A DNA stretch of 64,000 bases from Saccharibacillus kuerlensis DSM 22868 (GTDB lineage: Bacteria; Bacillota; Bacilli; Paenibacillales; Paenibacillaceae). The translations under genes were made by a program, and so were the position numbers. Under the pieces are notes generated by a model. The model saw only the letters and a list, made by a program, of their open reading frames with translations, ran no database searches and was not told the origin of the DNA. The DNA lies in assembly GCF_000378145.1 (NCBI RefSeq), contig NZ_KB899277.1:496001-560000 (forward strand). The letters are read 5' to 3'. Below, piece by piece: positions 15,890-23,063 of the stretch (its first letter is position 1; every line of letters starts with the position of its first letter).

Positions 15890-15991
15890 CACAGACCGAT
15901 CTCCCTCTGAATCGTTTTTGGCGATGACTCATTACTGCTCGCCTTCTTTCTTTATTTGGCGATCACCGGTGCTTTTTCCTGCTTTTTGGAG

Positions 15992-16036
15992 AAAAAAAGG
16001 AAGCGATGCCGATTTCATATCGGCATTCGCTTCCCC
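15992..16036 (-). terminator. Terminator of the 5'-3' exonuclease operon; first copy of a duplicated hairpin
   Basis: On the minus strand, GGAAGCGAATGCCGAT / ATCGGCATCGCTTCC is followed by TTTTTTT. The same 39-nt hairpin occurs again at 16240-16278, without a T-run. Confidence 0.8.
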
Positions 16037-16278
16037 AGGTTGCCCTCGAAAGTCTTATAAGCAGGACATTTCGCAGAGGCTGCGAAGAGAATTCATTCCG
16101 GTCGCGTGTTGAAATCGGGAAAAATGATTGAATTCTAGAGGAATTTTCCCGATTTCAAAGGCGAACACTATCGTTCCTACACTGAATTCCCTTCTCCGCT
16201 TTCCGAGTTTTCCTAGAATCAGACTTTCTCGACACGTTGAGGAAGCGATGCCGATTTCACATCGGCATTCGCTTCCCC
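15998..16278. repeat. Palindromic intergenic element (copy A) between two copies of a terminator hairpin
   Basis: A 39-nt hairpin at 15998-16036 recurs at 16240-16278 with one mismatch. The 203 nt between them begin AGGTTGCCCTCGAAAGTC and end GACTTTCTCGACACGTTG. The core contains a perfect 13-bp stem, GAAATCGGGAAAA / TTTTCCCGATTTC, and outer GAATTC-containing arms. It matches the element at 22355-22554 in long blocks such as TTCCGGTCGCGTGTTGAAATC and GATTTCAAAGGCGAAC. There is no open frame of note, so it is non-autonomous or structural. Confidence 0.75.
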
Positions 16279-16358
16279 CTTTTCTTTCGGTCTCTTCCTC
16301 TCCCAGAATTCAGGAGAGGCTGTTTGTCCTTATGAAGCCATACGCACGACGGAGCGGA

Positions 16359-16479
16359 GGGTGGAAGGAGGCGAAGAAGCGATAGCGCTCGCATCTAAAA
16401 TCCGATTCCTGCCTTTAGACATGTCTTACTCCAATCAAAGGGAATCTGATTTTAGCGGCGATCGAAGCCCCTTCCACCC
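16359..16479. repeat. Diverged palindromic element (copy C)
   Basis: GGGTGGAAGG (16359-16368) pairs perfectly with CCTTCCACCC (16470-16479). The inner arms TAAAATCCGATTCC (16396-16409) and GGAATCTGATTTTA (16441-16454) pair at 13 of 14 positions. Parts such as GTGGAAGGAG...AGCGCTCGC...AAAATC resemble the reverse complement of copies A and B, so it looks like a third, older member in opposite orientation. No flanking hairpin duplication is seen. The 630-nt gap 15893-16525 holds only these elements and the terminator. Confidence 0.55.
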
Positions 16480-16525
16480 GCAGCGTATCCCCGTGCACGC
16501 AGCTCACTAAGGCGAACAACTCGCC

Positions 16526-17458
16526 TTAGCCAAACACATCTACGCCCATCATTTTCCCCAGACTGCTCATCTCAAGTTCCTCGAACTTCGCCGAGATTTT
16601 CGAATCGTCGATCCGGAACTCGCATAGATCAATCGGACATTCAACCGGAACTTCGCAGTGAATTTCTGCCAGGGAACGGGACATATGGAGCATATCGAGA
16701 TCATTCTCGATTTTGGTACGGACAGACTTGGTCAGCTTGTCGAGATTGGCGAGAACACCGTCAATATCCCCGAACTCTTGAACAAGCTTGATTGCAGTTT
16801 TTTCGCCGATCCCTTTCACACCCGGATAGTTATCGCTGCTGTCGCCCATCAAGCCTTTCATATCGATAACCTGCGAAGGCTTCAGTCCCTTTTCTTCCAT
16901 CAGAACTTGGGGCGTATAGACTTGGTAATTGCCATAACCTTTTTTCATGATAATGACTTTGATCCGTTCGTCCGTCAGCTGCAGCAGGTCGTTATCGCCG
17001 GACAGAATCTGCACATCCATATGCGTTTCCTTCGCGCAGCGTTTGGCAATCGTACCGATGCAGTCATCCGCTTCATAACCCGGTACGCCGATATTCGGAA
17101 TATCCATGGCTTCGACCACTTCCTTGACGAGGTCAAACTGCGGGATTAGATCGTCCGGCGCTGCCGAACGGTTGCCCTTGTACGACTCGAACTGCTCGGT
17201 ACGGAACGTACGCCCGCCCATATCCCAGCAGCAGACGACGTGCGTCGGGTCAAACTGCTGAATAGCATCCCACATATACCGCACGAAACCATAGATTCCG
17301 TTAGTCGGTATGCCCGCATCAGTGCGCCGGATGTAGCCTTTGAGCGCTGTCGCGTAATAGGCCCGGAACAGCAGCGCCATGCCGTCGACCAGCATCAGTG
17401 TTGGCTTGCGAGCCAGTACATTTTCCGGAAGTCCTTCGATACCGCCGTGTTCGCTCAT
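16526..17458 (-). CDS. ypcP: 5'-3' exonuclease, polymerase I N-terminal domain type
   Basis: Stand-alone flap/5'-3' exonuclease homologous to the N-terminal domain of DNA polymerase I; it removes RNA primers and flaps. 310 residues. Metal-binding acidic residues are in LMLVDGMALLFRAYY (about residues 21-35), GYEADDCIGTIA, LSGDNDLLQL and MGDSSDNYPGVKGIGEKTA, the last being the helix-3-turn/H2TH DNA-binding region. The length matches Bacillus YpcP. The ATG overlaps the stop of the upstream ArsC-like gene by 4 nt (ATGA), so the two are translationally coupled. A perfect hairpin, CTAAGGCGA / TCGCCTTAG, covers its stop codon. Confidence 0.9.
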   Translation of the reverse strand: MSEHGGIEGLPENVLARKPTLMLVDGMALLFRAYYATALKGYIRRTDAGIPTNGIYGFVRYMWDAIQQFDPTHVVCCWDMGGRTFRTEQFESYKGNRSAAPDDLIPQFDLVKEVVEAMDIPNIGVPGYEADDCIGTIAKRCAKETHMDVQILSGDNDLLQLTDERIKVIIMKKGYGNYQVYTPQVLMEEKGLKPSQVIDMKGLMGDSSDNYPGVKGIGEKTAIKLVQEFGDIDGVLANLDKLTKSVRTKIENDLDMLHMSRSLAEIHCEVPVECPIDLCEFRIDDSKISAKFEELEMSSLGKMMGVDVFG

Positions 17459-17832
17459 TGACTCTTCTCCCCTTTACCCCAACTTTGTTCATACATCTCC
17501 GGCTTGAAGCCAAGCGTTACCTGACGGCCATCGGTCACGATCGGACGCTTGATCAGCTTGCCGTTCGAGGCCAGCAGTTCGGCGCGCTCTTCTTCGTCCA
17601 GACCGGACAATTTGTCCTTAAGTCCCAACTCTTTGTAGACCTCACCGCTGACATTGAAAAACTTTTTGGATTCCAGGCCGCTTTTGGCGATCAGATCCAG
17701 TATTTCTTCTTTGGAGGGAGGCTGCTCTATAATCGGAATCAGTTCCAGCTCGTACCCTTCGCCTTGCAGCCACTTAATCGCGCTGCGGCAGGTGCTGCAT
17801 TTGGAGTAGTGATAAACTTTCAGTGTTGTCAT
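17455..17832 (-). CDS. ArsC/Spx-family protein (arsenate-reductase-like)
   Basis: 125 residues with a thioredoxin-like ArsC fold. The N-terminal YHYSKCSTCRSAIKWL contains a CXXC motif (Cys12, Cys15), and the later KLIKRPIVTDG carries the Arg-Pro segment of the family. Such proteins are either small reductases or Spx-like RNA polymerase-binding regulators. The length and motifs resemble the uncharacterised YusI group more than Spx itself. It is the first gene of a two-gene unit with the exonuclease. No arsenic-resistance genes are nearby, so a role in arsenate reduction is not supported by context. Confidence 0.8.
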   Translation of the reverse strand: MTTLKVYHYSKCSTCRSAIKWLQGEGYELELIPIIEQPPSKEEILDLIAKSGLESKKFFNVSGEVYKELGLKDKLSGLDEEERAELLASNGKLIKRPIVTDGRQVTLGFKPEMYEQSWGKGEKSQ

Positions 17833-17884
17833 GGTTGTGATTCACATCTCTTTCTTCCAAGTTGCTATATGATCTGATCTTATT

Positions 17885-17941
17885 GTACTTTTGATCATGC
17901 TATGACTATACTTTTTGATCCTACAACTATATTTCTTGATC
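17885..17941. repeat. Three TTGATC repeats spaced about two helical turns
   Basis: TTGATC occurs at 17891-17896, 17915-17920 and 17936-17941, each in a similar context (ACTTTTGATC, ACTTTTTGATC, ATTTCTTGATC), with start-to-start distances of 24 and 21 bp. They lie just upstream of the ArsC-exonuclease unit, close to a possible minus-strand -10 element TACAAT (17887-17882). They may be a regulator-binding array. Confidence 0.4.
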
Positions 17942-17950
17942 ACGGCTTGT

Positions 17951-18979
17951 TCAGCTCTTGAGTCTCTGCTCCAACCTTTTTAAATCCGGCGGAAAAGGAG
18001 CTTCGAACGTCATTCGTTCTCCGGTTCCCGGATGAACGAATGCCAGACGATAGGCATGAAGCGCCTGCCGATCTATCGTCGCATCCAGCGCTTTTGCCCT
18101 TGCCCGCTCTTCGGATGTCAGCGGAGAAGACTCGGTATATTTGTACATCTCATCGCCAAGCAGCGGACAGCCGATATGCGTCATATGCACCCGAATCTGA
18201 TGAGTTCTCCCGCTCTCCAGCTCCAACTCAATCAATGACGCGCGGTAAGGCAGATAATGCTCCAATGTCCGATAGCGGGTCGCAGCAGGATAGCCGGTCG
18301 GCGTAACGATCCGCACATGCGGATTGTCCGGATCGCGATCAATCGGACCTTCGATACGCCCGCTTTCCGGCTGCGGACAGCCATGAACGAATGCCCTGTA
18401 TGTCTTGTCAACCGTTCCTGCGATCATCTGCTCGGAAATATGCTGATGAACATAAGGATTTTTGGCAATAGCCAGCACACCCGACGTTTCGCGGTCCAAT
18501 CGGTGCACCGGACGGAAACGGACCTGTTCACCGCGTTCCCGCCAGTGGTGCACAACTCCGTTCGCCAGCGTACCGGTATAATGACCATGCGTAGGATGGA
18601 CGATTACGCCTGCGGCCTTGTTTATAATCAGCAGCTCTCGGTCTTCGTAAACAATGTCCAGCGGCATCTGCTCCGGCAGAATATCGTCCGACACTTCGCG
18701 CTCCATTCGCAGCTCGACCATGTCTCCGCTCTGTACCTTCACACTGATGTATACACGTTTGCCGTTCAGCATAATGCCGCGCTCGGTCATTTTGAGCCGG
18801 GATGTTAGCTTGCGCGATACCCCCAGACGGCTGTGCAGCAGCGTTTTGAGTGTCCAACCGCTTTCGCGTTCGGATACGGTGTAAACAATGGGATCATAAT
18901 AGCCGTGTTCCGGCTCAATCCCTTTTTCTCTCGGAAAATCATACGGTTCCGGCCTGTTCTCTGTTGGTTCGATCTTCAT
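17951..18979 (-). CDS. RluA-family pseudouridine synthase
   Basis: Converts uridine to pseudouridine in rRNA or tRNA. 342 residues. An S4-like RNA-binding region is at about residues 40-95, and the catalytic motif HRLDRETSG holds the nucleophile Asp162. RTHQIRVHMTHIGCPLLGDEMY is the second family signature. The target base cannot be assigned by sequence reading. Its start overlaps the stop of the upstream cobalamin adenosyltransferase gene by 4 nt, so the two are co-translated. The combination seems to be one of convenience rather than function. Confidence 0.92.
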   Translation of the reverse strand: MKIEPTENRPEPYDFPREKGIEPEHGYYDPIVYTVSERESGWTLKTLLHSRLGVSRKLTSRLKMTERGIMLNGKRVYISVKVQSGDMVELRMEREVSDDILPEQMPLDIVYEDRELLIINKAAGVIVHPTHGHYTGTLANGVVHHWRERGEQVRFRPVHRLDRETSGVLAIAKNPYVHQHISEQMIAGTVDKTYRAFVHGCPQPESGRIEGPIDRDPDNPHVRIVTPTGYPAATRYRTLEHYLPYRASLIELELESGRTHQIRVHMTHIGCPLLGDEMYKYTESSPLTSEERARAKALDATIDRQALHAYRLAFVHPGTGERMTFEAPFPPDLKRLEQRLKS

Positions 18980-19575
18980 TCACCCTGCTTTTGTTCATTT
19001 TTGCGGTCTGTATCACCGGTAAACACCCGGGCACCGCGCACATATTCCACGTCTTCCGCTCTCAGCTTGAGATTGGCAGCTCGCGCAGCACTGAAAAAGT
19101 AGTCGGACAAGCGGTTCAGATACCGGAGCACTTCCGGATTGACTTCTCCCTCGTCCGTAAGGGTCACGACACGCCGCTCGGCACGCCGGCAGACCGTTCT
19201 GCAGATATGCAGTGCGGCTGCCGGCGGACTGCCTCCCGGAAGAATAAAGCGATCCAGCGGCGGATTTCCCGCTTCCAATCGGTCAATCCAGACTTCAAGG
19301 CGCTCTGTCATGGCAGCATGCGTCTTGTACGGCTGCTGCGCCGCAGGCGTATAGGCCAGATCCGAGCCGCAGTCGAACAGCTCCTGGCCGACGACGGCCA
19401 ACTGTTCACGCAGATCTTTGAAGCGATCGTCCTGCAGCAGTGCCGCAGCTTGACCGACAAAACTGTTCAATTCATCGATCGTGCCGTAAGCCTCTACGCG
19501 GGCATCGTCTTTACGGACTCTTCCCCCGATTACCGATGTTTCTCCGCCGTCCCCCGTTTTCGTATAAATGCGCAT
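18976..19575 (-). CDS. Cob(I)alamin adenosyltransferase, PduO type
   Basis: Transfers the adenosyl group of ATP to cob(I)alamin to make coenzyme B12. 199 residues, a four-helix trimeric fold. The N-terminal MRIYTKTGDGGETSVIGG is the ATP-binding loop of the PduO family, and CRRAERRVV near residue 125 is the second signature. The ATG at 19575 is chosen because GGAGG lies 8 nt upstream; a longer frame to 19611 lacks a site. No B12 riboswitch was seen upstream. It heads a two-gene unit with the pseudouridine synthase and starts 46 nt after the lipoprotein gene. Confidence 0.92.
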   Translation of the reverse strand: MRIYTKTGDGGETSVIGGRVRKDDARVEAYGTIDELNSFVGQAAALLQDDRFKDLREQLAVVGQELFDCGSDLAYTPAAQQPYKTHAAMTERLEVWIDRLEAGNPPLDRFILPGGSPPAAALHICRTVCRRAERRVVTLTDEGEVNPEVLRYLNRLSDYFFSAARAANLKLRAEDVEYVRGARVFTGDTDRKNEQKQGE

Positions 19576-19621
19576 ATCCGTGTCCTCCTTCCGGTTCTCG
19601 CAAGCTGTCAAACGGTTTTCA

Positions 19622-20167
19622 TCAGCCTTCCGTCAGCTTTTGCAGCACTTTGACTGCCGCTTCCTTATCAGGCGCATTGACCAGTACGCATGCCAGCAAA
19701 CCTTCAGGCGTATAACCTGTGTCCTGGAACATTTTCATCTCTGTGAGCGGAATACCGAATAGATGCTCCTCGAGCACCGCATCATTTTCTCCGTCCTTCA
19801 GCACACCGCTTTCAAATACGCCTTCCGGATACTCGGATTTGTCAAAATATTCATCGAGCGGGATATGAGCCCCGTCTTTCCCGTACGTTTTAATCGTATC
19901 TTCCGGCAAAATGACGATAGAATTGCCCCCTGCCGCATATTCGATCATCACTTTTTGCAGATTGAACAATGGCGAATAGTTAAGTTCTACTTTCAGTTCT
20001 GACAGATCAGTATTCAATTTCTCCTGAACAAGACCAATGGCATCCTGACTGACAGCCCCTTCATCCGACATGAAAATCGTGATATTGTCATCTCCTTTGC
20101 CGCATCCGGCCAACAGCATAATCGCCGCAATCATCAGCATCCAGACTCCCGCTTTTCTTCGCTTCAC
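19622..20167 (-). CDS. Predicted lipoprotein of unknown function
   Basis: 181 residues. The N-terminus is a lipoprotein signal: basic KRRK, a hydrophobic stretch and the lipobox LLAGC (Cys22), so the mature protein should be anchored to the outer face of the membrane. The rest (NITIFMSDEGAVSQDAI, AAGGNSIVILPEDTIKTYG) recalls part of a periplasmic-binding fold, but the protein is far too short for a full solute-binding protein. I do not recognise the family. GTG start at 20167 with GGGGG 7 nt upstream. It may be co-transcribed with the adenosyltransferase gene downstream. Confidence 0.75.
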   Translation of the reverse strand: MKRRKAGVWMLMIAAIMLLAGCGKGDDNITIFMSDEGAVSQDAIGLVQEKLNTDLSELKVELNYSPLFNLQKVMIEYAAGGNSIVILPEDTIKTYGKDGAHIPLDEYFDKSEYPEGVFESGVLKDGENDAVLEEHLFGIPLTEMKMFQDTGYTPEGLLACVLVNAPDKEAAVKVLQKLTEG

Positions 20168-20305
20168 CTTGATTCCCCCTCAATCTCCTGCCGTAAAAAG
20201 TATTCCTTAATTAATATATCACAACTCACCCGCCGCAAGCATTGCCGGCTTCCGCTTCCTTCTTTGTCTCTGCGAACTCTTTTTATGCATCAAATTCTTT
20301 CCATT

Positions 20306-20345
20306 GAAAAAGGAAGAGCTTCTTCAACGAAGTCTCTTCCTTTTT
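20306..20345 (-). terminator. Terminator of alaT
   Basis: Stem AAAAAGGAAGAG / CTCTTCCTTTTT with a structured loop, T-run on the minus strand, about 55 nt after the alaT stop. Confidence 0.85.
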
Positions 20346-20397
20346 AATCATTCATTATGATTTTCCGTTATTGGATTAGTTCGCTTTTGCTTTCAGA

Positions 20398-21639
20398 TCA
20401 GGCGCCTTCGCGCTTCACCTTGTACACAAATTGACCAATCCGATCCATCGCTTCATTCAGCTGTGCAACGGAAGTTGCATAGGAGCAGCGCAGGAACCCT
20501 TCTCCTCCTAGACCGAATACATCGCCCGGAACAGCAGCTACTTTGCCTTCGGCCAGCAGACGCTGTGCGAAGATTTCGGAGGTCAGTCCGGTAGACTGAA
20601 TACTCGGAAACGCATAGAAAGCTCCTTCCGGCTCATGGCATTCCAATCCGGCGTCACGCAGTCCCTGAACGACGAGACGGCGGCGGCGATTGTAGGATTC
20701 TACCATCTTGTCCTTTTCGCCCAATCCGTTGGTCAACGCTTCAAGCGCAGCGACTTGGCCCATGACCGGTGCACACATAACTGTGTATTGATGGATCTTA
20801 AGCATTGCAGAGATCAGCTCCGGATGTCCGCAGGCATAACCCATCCGCCAGCCGGTCATCGCAAACGCTTTGGAGAATCCGCTGACGAGAATCGTACGAT
20901 CTTTCATTCCCGGCGCAGCGGCGAAACTCGCATGTTTGCTTTGACCGTAACTCAACTCGGCATAGATTTCATCGGAAATGACGATCAGATCGTGCTTTTC
21001 GACTACTTTGGCAATCGGAATCCAGTCTTCTGCCGTCATCGTCGCTCCCGTCGGGTTGCTCGGATAGCAGAGGATTAGCACTTTCGATTTAGGCGTGATA
21101 CTGTTTTCCAGCGCTTCGGCCGTCAGTTTGAAGTTGTCTTTGGCAAAAGTCTCGATCCCGATCGGCACCCCTCCGCCAATCGATGTGATCGGGGAATATG
21201 AGATGTAGCACGGTTCGGGTACGAGTACCTCGTCGCCCGGACGGATCAACGCTCGCAGTGCAAGGTCGATCGCCTCACTGCCGCCAACCGTAACCAGCAC
21301 TTCTTTTTCAGGATCATAAGCCGTACCGAAAGACCCTTTCAAATAAGACGAGATCGCTTCGCGCAGCTCCGGCATACCCGCGTTCGATGTATACCGGGTG
21401 TAGCCGCGCTCCAGCGAATACACGCATGCTTCCCGTACATGCCATGGCGTCACGAAGTCCGGCTCGCCGACGCCCAGTGTAATAATATCTTTGCTCGCGC
21501 TGACGAGATCGAAAAACTTGCGGATGCCCGAAGGCTTAATATCGCGAACGAGGGGCGACAAATAACGTTCCATGGAGCCATGCTCAGAATCCGAAGGTTG
21601 TTGTGTGCTGTTTTCGTTAAGTTCCCGGTTAGTAATCAT
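20398..21639 (-). CDS. alaT: Aminotransferase class I, probable alanine transaminase
   Basis: PLP enzyme that moves amino groups between an amino acid and a keto acid. 413 residues, fold type I. The PLP lysine is Lys257 in SGFSKAFAMTGWRMGY; other signatures are GVGEPDF (58-63), YPSNPTGA (192-199) and the C-terminal RCSYATS. Sequence and the adjacent Lrp-type regulator match the Bacillus subtilis alaR-alaT (yugG-yugH) pair, so alanine synthesis from pyruvate is inferred. Aspartate or aromatic specificity cannot be excluded. The first 22 residues form a polar extension before the conserved MERYLSPL start. Confidence 0.87.
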   Translation of the reverse strand: MITNRELNENSTQQPSDSEHGSMERYLSPLVRDIKPSGIRKFFDLVSASKDIITLGVGEPDFVTPWHVREACVYSLERGYTRYTSNAGMPELREAISSYLKGSFGTAYDPEKEVLVTVGGSEAIDLALRALIRPGDEVLVPEPCYISYSPITSIGGGVPIGIETFAKDNFKLTAEALENSITPKSKVLILCYPSNPTGATMTAEDWIPIAKVVEKHDLIVISDEIYAELSYGQSKHASFAAAPGMKDRTILVSGFSKAFAMTGWRMGYACGHPELISAMLKIHQYTVMCAPVMGQVAALEALTNGLGEKDKMVESYNRRRRLVVQGLRDAGLECHEPEGAFYAFPSIQSTGLTSEIFAQRLLAEGKVAAVPGDVFGLGGEGFLRCSYATSVAQLNEAMDRIGQFVYKVKREGA

Positions 21640-21652
21640 CGTTTCGCATCCT

Positions 21653-22153
21653 TTACGGCGAGATCATCAAACGGCGGTCTTCTTCATGTTCCTCGAAAAT
21701 GATACCGTTCTGCTTGTATTTTTTGAGAATGAAATGGGTCTTGGTCGACAAAACGGATTCGATCGGCGAAAGTTTGTCGGAGACGAAACTGGCTACTTCT
21801 TTCAGACTCAGACCGTCCACCTCGACCAAAAGATCGTAAGCGCCGGACATCAAGAATACCGACTTAACCTGCGGATAGCGATAAATGCGTTCCGCAATGC
21901 CTTCAAAGCCACGTCCACGCTCCGGCGTAATTTGCACTTCGATCAGCGCCGTTACCTTCTCATCGTTGACCTTACTTTCGTTGACAACCGTCGCATATTT
22001 AACGATTACTCGATCCTGTTCGAGCTCTTGAACGGCTGCTTGCACTTCTTCTTCCGGAATATCCAGCATGGTGGACAGCAGTTCGGGCGTACGGCGCGCA
22101 TCTTCTTCCAACAGTTCGAGAATGTCCAATTTCAGCTTGTTCGTTTCTTTCAC
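21653..22153 (-). CDS. alaR: Lrp/AsnC-family transcription regulator
   Basis: 166 residues. An N-terminal winged helix-turn-helix (LDILELLEEDARRTPELLSTML DIPEEEVQAAVQELEQ) is followed by a RAM-type ligand-binding domain (TALIEVQITPERGRGFEGIAERIYRYPQVKSVFLMSGAYDLLVEVDG). Such proteins bind an amino acid and control its metabolism. The stop is 13 nt before the alaT start, so it is very likely the activator of alaT, as in Bacillus. GTG start with GGAGG 8 nt upstream; an ATG cannot be used without losing part of the HTH. Confidence 0.88.
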   Translation of the reverse strand: MKETNKLKLDILELLEEDARRTPELLSTMLDIPEEEVQAAVQELEQDRVIVKYATVVNESKVNDEKVTALIEVQITPERGRGFEGIAERIYRYPQVKSVFLMSGAYDLLVEVDGLSLKEVASFVSDKLSPIESVLSTKTHFILKKYKQNGIIFEEHEEDRRLMISP

Positions 22154-22326
22154 TCCGCATGCCTCCAGATAAGTTTCGCTTGGTAAGTGACCAGACAGGT
22201 CAGCTTTGCATTTGCTTTATTGTACCTCATCTTACCCGAAAAGATTCCCTTATGCTACCGTTTGCGCGTAATTGAAGCATACCGCCGCTGTTCGAAAAAG
22301 ACCTTCGAGCGGATTTTATATATAAA

Positions 22327-22582
22327 GAGACTGCTTCTGAAAAGAGGCAGTCTCAGGCTGTCGAGAAAGTCACATCCGTAGAGAATCCGTGAAGGCTGCA
22401 GAGAAAATTCGTTCCGGTCGCGTGTTGAAATCAAGAAAAGAGATTAAATTTTAGTGGAATTTTCTCGATTTCAAAGGCGAACGCTGGCGCTCCTTCACTG
22501 AATTTCCTCTTCCGCTCATTGGATTCTCACAAAAAAAGACTTTCTCAACACGTTGAGACTGCTTCTGAAAAGAAGCAGTCTC
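22327..22582. repeat. Palindromic intergenic element (copy B) between two copies of a hairpin
   Basis: A 28-nt hairpin GAGACTGCTTCTGAAAAG... at 22327-22354 recurs at 22555-22582 with one mismatch. The 200 nt between begin AGGCTGTCGAGAAAGTC and end GACTTTCTCAACACGTTG, which are imperfect inverted ends. The core matches copy A, with stem GAAATCAAGAAAA / TTTTCTCGATTTC. The flanking hairpin differs completely from that of copy A. The 490-nt gap between alaR and the DUF350 gene holds this element and one terminator. Confidence 0.75.
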
Positions 22583-22592
22583 TTTAAAATAT

Positions 22593-22636
22593 GAAAAGCA
22601 GCCGTTCGGTTTTCTTCAAAAACAGAACGGCTGCGA
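22593..22636 (-). terminator. Terminator of the DUF350 gene
   Basis: Stem GCAGCCGTTC / GAACGGCTGC, followed on the minus strand by TTTTC. It begins 8 nt after the stop codon. Confidence 0.8.
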
Positions 22637-22643
22637 TTGCCTT

Positions 22644-23063
22644 TTAGAGAACCGAAACGCCGATGACATAAGAAAGCGATATGGACAAGATCATGGCGAT
22701 CAGCCCAACTGCCCGATTATCCCGTTCAATCTCCTCGTCGATCTTGAAGAACGGGGTGACAAACTCAAACAGGAAATATCCGATCATCAGCAGGACAAAG
22801 CCGACAAGAGACCACAACATGCTCTCATAGATGCTGGATCCTGATTCGATACAGAAACGCAAAACATTACAGATGCCAAATATCTTACCACCGGTTGCCA
22901 TTGCAACCGCCACATTGCCCTTGCGGATCTCATCCCAGCATTTGTATCGGGTGACCGCTTCGAAAATGGACAAAAACACAACCAATTCCAGAACGGCTAC
23001 CGAGAAATAAGCTGCGGCAGAACCGATCGGGGACGCCAGAATAGAATCGACTGCACTATTCAT
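22644..23063 (-). CDS. DUF350 integral membrane protein (YshE-like)
   Basis: 139 residues with four hydrophobic segments (around residues 15-40, 50-65, 80-105 and 118-138). It matches the DUF350 family and lies directly behind mutS2, the position of yshE in Bacillus subtilis. The function is unknown; no catalytic motif is visible. The start is 25 nt after the mutS2 stop, so it is probably the last gene of that transcript. Confidence 0.82.
   Translation of the reverse strand: MNSAVDSILASPIGSAAAYFSVAVLELVVFLSIFEAVTRYKCWDEIRKGNVAVAMATGGKIFGICNVLRFCIESGSSIYESMLWSLVGFVLLMIGYFLFEFVTPFFKIDEEIERDNRAVGLIAMILSISLSYVIGVSVL

Follow-up and report, generated by a model that had tools for sequence, protein, structure and literature searches.

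A MITE of Saccharibacillus flanked by duplicated terminator-like hairpins, with an IS1182-family transposase as its probable mover

Element B and its relatives in the window

The element described here is very probably a miniature inverted-repeat element (MITE) that is moved in trans by a DDE transposase of the IS1182 family aimed at the hairpins of intrinsic terminators, the target hairpin being duplicated by gap filling. The window, meaning the whole stretch of 64,000 nucleotides that was analysed, corresponds to bases 496001–560000 of contig 1 of a 4.7-Mb draft genome in 56 contigs, and it contains two copies, A and B, of an element of about 202 bp (Table 1). The neighbours of element B are a DUF350 gene (22644–23063, minus strand) and a gene for an AsnC/Lrp-type regulator (21653–22153, minus strand). 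The original prediction, made from the window alone, placed B between two 28-nt copies of a hairpin, and the two copies (22327–22354 and 22555–22582) do show a single difference in 28 positions. The claimed ends AGGCTGTCGAGAAAGTC and GACTTTCTCAACACGTTG are likewise present in B, and form imperfect inverted ends. A scan of window positions 15900–22900 against Rfam matched no family up to an E value of 1. Immediately to the right of element A, at 16385–16450 in the window, there is a sister core with a different inner stem (TCTAAAATCCGATTCC...), which is also found in relatives (L296–L300).

Table 1. Positions in the window of elements A and B, their hairpins and their inner parts
Feature	Position	Strand	Basis
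Left target copy of element B, an entire terminator-like hairpin of 26 bp	22328..22353	.	
Left inverted end of MITE B, CAGGCTGTCGAGAAAGTC	22354..22371	+	same 18 bases on the IS1182 copies of G066 and G113
Element B, a non-autonomous, gene-free MITE of about 202 bp	22354..22555	.	
Inner stem of B, left arm	22427..22439	+	covariation
Inner stem of B, right arm	22460..22472	+	covariation
Right inverted end of B, CAACGTGTTGAGAAAGTC on the minus strand	22538..22555	-	
Right hairpin copy of B, identical to the left copy at 25 of 26 positions	22556..22581	.	
Left copy of the own, different hairpin of element A	15999..16034	.	
Element A, the second MITE copy in the window, with a decayed left end, CAGGTTGCCCTCGAAAGTC	16036..16239	.	
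Right copy of the own hairpin of element A	16241..16276	.	

Copies, ends and distribution

A search of the host genome gave 45 matches, one being B itself and two coming from the hairpins of B, and the 42 others correspond to at least about 39 other places, several of them partial. Three elements found in two pieces were counted once and four of the matches are pieces at contig ends, and as the count is drawn from the best 40 of 75 candidates it is a lower bound. The original prediction had weighed an inserting element against a local duplication, and copies at this many places argue against the latter. In a family-wide sample, with up to four candidates scored per genome, strong matches to the element are present in 10 of the 16 Saccharibacillus genomes, and 42 genomes of other genera match the inner core only, without the ends (20 loci inspected).

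A typical copy starts with CAGGCTGTCGAGAAAGTC and terminates with GACTTTCTCGACACGTTG. For the analysis of ends and flanks, 87 copies with both ends and sufficient flank were used, 22 from the host genome and 65 from eight further Saccharibacillus genomes, after the second listings L018 and L282 had been dropped from 89 rows. Measured from TGT to ACA, 43 of these copies span 192 bp and 62 span 190–195 bp, with 25 being longer. The elements are short, without a gene, present in many copies and provided with terminal inverted repeats, and 76 of the 87 are flanked by a target duplication, which together are the features of a MITE. Hairpin-bearing inserts of about 40 nt recur near one spot of the core (L028, L029, L290, L297), as if a smaller element were inserting there, and may explain many of the longer copies (228–305 bp). 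Lone MITE ends in genomes G124, G108 and G061 were considered as parts of autonomous elements and rejected, a second end being located 170–270 bp off in ten stretches; these second ends have at most two mismatches (three in L156), and all ten stretches are MITE copies.

Duplication of the entire target hairpin

With a hairpin defined by a score of 15 or more and a foot within 6 nt of the element, the left flank carries one in 81 of the 87 copies, the right flank in 82 and both flanks in 77, the two-sided test thus failing in ten. In the controls, for a hairpin on one side, such a structure was present in 130 of 3000 45-mers drawn at random from the window and in 15 of 435 right flanks after shuffling. 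The direct duplication of the flanks is 15–35 bp long, with 37 perfect cases and a mean identity of 95.1%. Its centre is located at most 1 nt from the hairpin dyad for 70 of 76 right copies and 72 of 76 left copies, and its length follows the span of the hairpin (r = 0.88), the two differing by at most 2 nt in 68 of 76. What is duplicated is the entire hairpin, whatever its length, a point absent from the original prediction. The right copy opens with A in 57 of 76 and the left copy closes with T in 56 of 76, and the block often stops inside A/T tracts. Three or more further outward pairs are possible in 30 of 50 dyad-centred copies, which places the joint inward of the last pair that could form.

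No duplication of 12 bp or more was found in 11 of the 87 copies. Judged by eye, four of these (L004, L019, L069, L256) have hairpins on both flanks, with indels or many changes between them, and two (L261, L267) have unrelated flanks, with L024, L071, one copy of L155, L283 and L284 left without explanation. In L260, L160 and L273 the unit of hairpin, MITE and hairpin is directly abutted by an IS1182-type or MITE-type end, and the duplicated hairpins seem there to have been hit again, giving nested or tandem insertions.

That the duplication belongs to the insertion process, as had been proposed from the two elements in the window, is borne out by hairpins that vary between sites and match within a site in these 76 copies, and with element-free relatives that hold a single homologous hairpin, the homology at empty sites being judged by eye. 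The region was found in all 16 genomes of the genus, and 18 of 20 stretches were compared, leaving out L302 and L303. At site B the element is absent from four genomes, namely G061, G108, G081 and G148 (L286, L288, L289, L293), each of which holds a single hairpin homologous to the doubled one. A truncated MITE end adjoins the foot of that hairpin in G124, and G132, G071, G091 and G140 have a single hairpin followed by another core-type repeat; a clear counterpart was not found at this site in G116 and G100. At site A, where the comparison leaves out G081 and G148, one homologous hairpin without element is present in G071, G132 and G140 (L296, L297, L300), and G061, G124, G108 and G091 carry different hairpins without clear homology.

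These sites bear on two other explanations. That the hairpins belong to the mobile unit and are carried along with it is hardly credible, since they differ from site to site and a matching single hairpin is present in relatives without the element, even though hairpins abut the element ends in most copies. Slippage or gene conversion, to which palindromes are prone, could have doubled the hairpins after an ordinary insertion beside one, but the identical outcome at dozens of different sites and also in IS1182 copies, at the element ends, makes this very improbable. Duplication during insertion itself is the reading followed below.

IS1182 elements with similar ends and the same target duplication

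The NCBIfam model of IS1182 (NF033551) is matched in 5 of the 16 genomes of the genus, including the host, where the draft assembly of 56 contigs contains only a broken remnant (L166) flanked by two different hairpins. The transposase has the domains DUF772 and DDE_Tnp_1_6, and in L165 the C part reaches 292.5 bits against the NCBIfam model, above the cut-off of 270 bits, with the N part alone at 214.4 bits, under the cut-off. The Saccharibacillus copies L164, L165, L171 and L173 have the ends CAGGCTGTCGAGAAACTC and CAGA(G/A)TGTCGAGAAACCC; the last three are each located between two copies of one hairpin, and L164 between two different hairpins. In G066 and G113, which belong to one other genus, all eight fetched IS copies are flanked by a duplicated hairpin, and the 18 bases at their left end are identical to the MITE end CAGGCTGTCGAGAAAGTC, with one mismatch in the Saccharibacillus copies. 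Thus 11 of 12 IS1182 copies with a split gene (four each in G066, G113 and Saccharibacillus) are found between two copies of one hairpin, and the same holds, with exact copies, for L162 and L190 where the gene is uninterrupted. Other IS1182 copies in Saccharibacillus are of another kind (L163, L167) or fragments (L172, L176).

By eye, the similarity between MITE and IS1182 is confined to the terminal 13–18 bp, and the interior is not shared. The MITE has its ends in common with autonomous IS1182 elements and behaves in the same way at the target, as an IS1182-derived MITE would. The search for a transposase acting in trans, which the original prediction had suggested, led in this way to the IS1182 family as the putative trans-acting partner.

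An IS1202-type transposase, with its long duplications, would be another candidate for the mover, and both the TGT...ACA-like ends and the duplications of 27 and 28 bp given for IS1202 and ISSeq2 in the available part of PMC10132070 are compatible with it. The single match to NF033594 in the host genome, however, has an E value of 0.19, and at E 1e-10 all 16 genomes of the genus are without a match; the IS1202-family copies compared in relatives (L122–L141; G254, G174, G130, G043) mostly have duplications of 15–17 bp and are located off hairpins, whereas the duplication of the MITE varies in length with the hairpin, so that such a mover is scarcely to be expected. NF033594 was rejected as partner, no transposase of this type with matching ends being found in the host. 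Judged by eye, the IS1202-family elements seem often to be located just upstream of sequences resembling -35 and -10 promoter regions (L125, L136, L137, L139).

Among 296 genomes searched in the order, 50 contain relatives of the IS1182 transposase. Direct repeats that are exact, palindromic and spaced as expected for the IS are found at 18 of 32 loci (30 fetched loci together with L162 and L190), or 16 of 29 when the Saccharibacillus loci L409–L411 are left out, and a qualifying repeat is absent from 14 of the 32, some of which are truncated, with exact repeats only being counted. In a FastTree phylogeny of 20 of 21 chosen transposases (L242 left out, and with the C part only for split genes) the split, hairpin-duplicating group has a support of 1.000 both alone and together with L190, and L162 is located on another branch, indicating that more than one clade duplicates hairpins. 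The IS1182 copies of G130, G114, G074 and G065 appear by eye to be inserted in the loops of small palindromes with duplications of about 4–7 bp (L226, L227, L229, L216, L242), an example being CCTGC-AGTTTT-GCAGG in L226, and for the copies of G184, G004 and G122 the type of insertion could not be placed.

A probable frameshift signal in the transposase gene

In all 12 split-gene copies, which span four lineages (G108/G124, G132, G066 and G113), the N-terminal frame ends with GGA AAA AAG NNN stop, and the -1 frame encodes the catalytic part. The same arrangement is present in 20 of 30 loci of the order-wide search, three of them already counted among the 12. A AAA AAG is the classical -1 slippery heptamer, as in dnaX, and its conservation in this IS1182 group therefore makes programmed -1 frameshifting likely.

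Terminator-like targets and a proposed route of insertion

The target hairpins look like intrinsic terminators, a point that the first reading did not contain: at least four A (upstream) or T (downstream) within 8 bases are found on one side or both in 73 of the 76, and on both in 50. The direction of the element is with the T-tract side in 32 cases and against it in 31, with 13 ties. A Rayleigh test of the block lengths gives no sign of helical phasing (R 0.07, p about 0.69), and both results are as expected of a symmetric folded target. The many A/T tracts would also suit a transposase that senses RNA polymerase at termination, or the hairpin in the nascent RNA, in place of folded DNA, with the duplication arising from a transcription bubble or R-loop. 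We regard this as rather unlikely, as the orientation of the T-tracts is evenly divided, a weak test with so many two-sided targets, and as the IS1182 groups of G130 and G114 seem by eye to use small palindromes that are not terminator-like.

In the preferred route, with the folded hairpin itself as target, the IS1182-family transposase would act in trans on the ends of the MITE, and the hairpin of an intrinsic terminator would be recognized, perhaps extruded as a cruciform. On each strand the 5' foot of the hairpin would receive a 3' end of the element, with the two joints separated by one hairpin length, and gap filling would then give one complete hairpin on either side of the element, termination presumably being kept. 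We lean slightly towards a more general reading, according to which the fold of the target determines where one IS1182 group makes its joints, with both ends at the two 5' feet of the cruciform and a duplication that is the hairpin, of any length. Terminators would then be a renewable landing place, because the element ends up between two hairpins after each insertion, with one target more than before, and the family as a whole would realise replacement, whole-hairpin duplication and loop duplication as three results of a single geometry.

Comparison with known systems

Group IIC introns also land at terminator hairpins, by an RNA-mediated route, and are not known to duplicate the hairpin. The IS1182 duplications are reportedly 0–60 bp in the table of a review by Siguier.

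Targeting of hairpins is already known for IS1182. The elements IS1272 and TnSha1 of this family use stem-loops as targets, several of them confirmed terminators, with partial deletion (Furi 2016, PMC4923244, in the part available). They have the IS1182-family transposase and a stem-loop target without sequence specificity in common with the element described here, but in the parts available of PMC4923244 and PMC5678879 the stem-loop is deleted or replaced and not duplicated, whereas here the entire stem-loop is duplicated; loss of the stem-loop without duplication is not what the MITE copies show. Duplication of a whole hairpin is drawn as alternative pathway b in the IS1272 model of Wan 2017 (PMC5678879, available part). 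The IS1182 elements of the same bacterial family (G065, G114, G130, G074) are alike in family, in their similar ends and in the apparently palindromic target, and differ in the short duplication seemingly placed in the loop, which by eye corresponds to pathway c of the same model as seen in the available part of PMC5678879. The behaviour of IS1182 is described as variable in the accessible text of PMC12056078, and the portion seen of a table in PMC3281130 has one IS1182 element, with a duplication that is apparently 4-bp. Elements of the IS1202 family have long target duplications and TGT..ACA-type ends as well, but another transposase, and a hairpin target is absent in the copies compared; in the accessible text of PMC10132070 no target was found for the members with long duplications.

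In the literature examined, PMC5678879 and PMC4923244 alone give a detailed account of IS1182 transposition into hairpins. Whole-hairpin duplication as an observed event was not found in the literature on IS1182 examined, and ISfinder was outside this search, so an earlier description is possible. As far as searched, the complete duplication of a terminator-like hairpin, at many sites and by a MITE, is new, and the copies described here give support from many sites and several species to an outcome for which the literature examined offers nothing beyond the alternative branch drawn in the IS1272 model. It points to a transposase with a duplication length set by the structure of the DNA and not by a fixed stagger, and suggests how a mobile element can reach dozens of copies and yet leave the terminator hairpins in place. 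The initially identical pair of hairpins at each site constitutes a natural experiment on the drift of terminators, and an insertion system that is aimed at hairpins and mostly spares genes is possibly a useful tool.

Inner structure of the element

A compensating change had been noted between the inner stems of A and B; one pair is indeed compensated, but a second pair is only half-changed, giving an A.C mismatch in B. The RNAalifold consensus of 62 of the 87 copies (190–195 bp, the 25 longer copies left out) has 32 pairs, with 98.3% of the cells pairing against 94.7% in shuffles. There are 91 cells with double changes against 20.3 (sd 3.5) in shuffles, and 14 pairs with such changes against 6.9 (sd 1.1). 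The observed values were reached by none of 300 shuffles, so covariation is in excess, although the excess is partly inflated because the shuffles ignore relatedness. The suggested selection on structure holds in so far as pairing is kept through double changes, and selection or correction of the palindrome, acting on RNA or on DNA, are both possible sources of it. A hand count gives about 24 A.C cells and about 12 G.T cells (the latter with one near-constant G.T column pair excluded). A.C is thus not the rarer of the two, which suits a constraint acting on the DNA, or on both strands, better than one on a single RNA.

Among 693 position pairs of the twin hairpins 651 are unchanged, four have compensated double changes and one has another double change, the remaining 37 being one-sided changes that give 18 G.T, 14 A.C and five other combinations. 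Other genera of the family have the inner core, without the MITE ends, as a dispersed palindromic repeat (L072–L091), which we take to be reminiscent of REPIN-type repeats, and on contig 43 of G026 three copies of the core are spaced by 260 bp.
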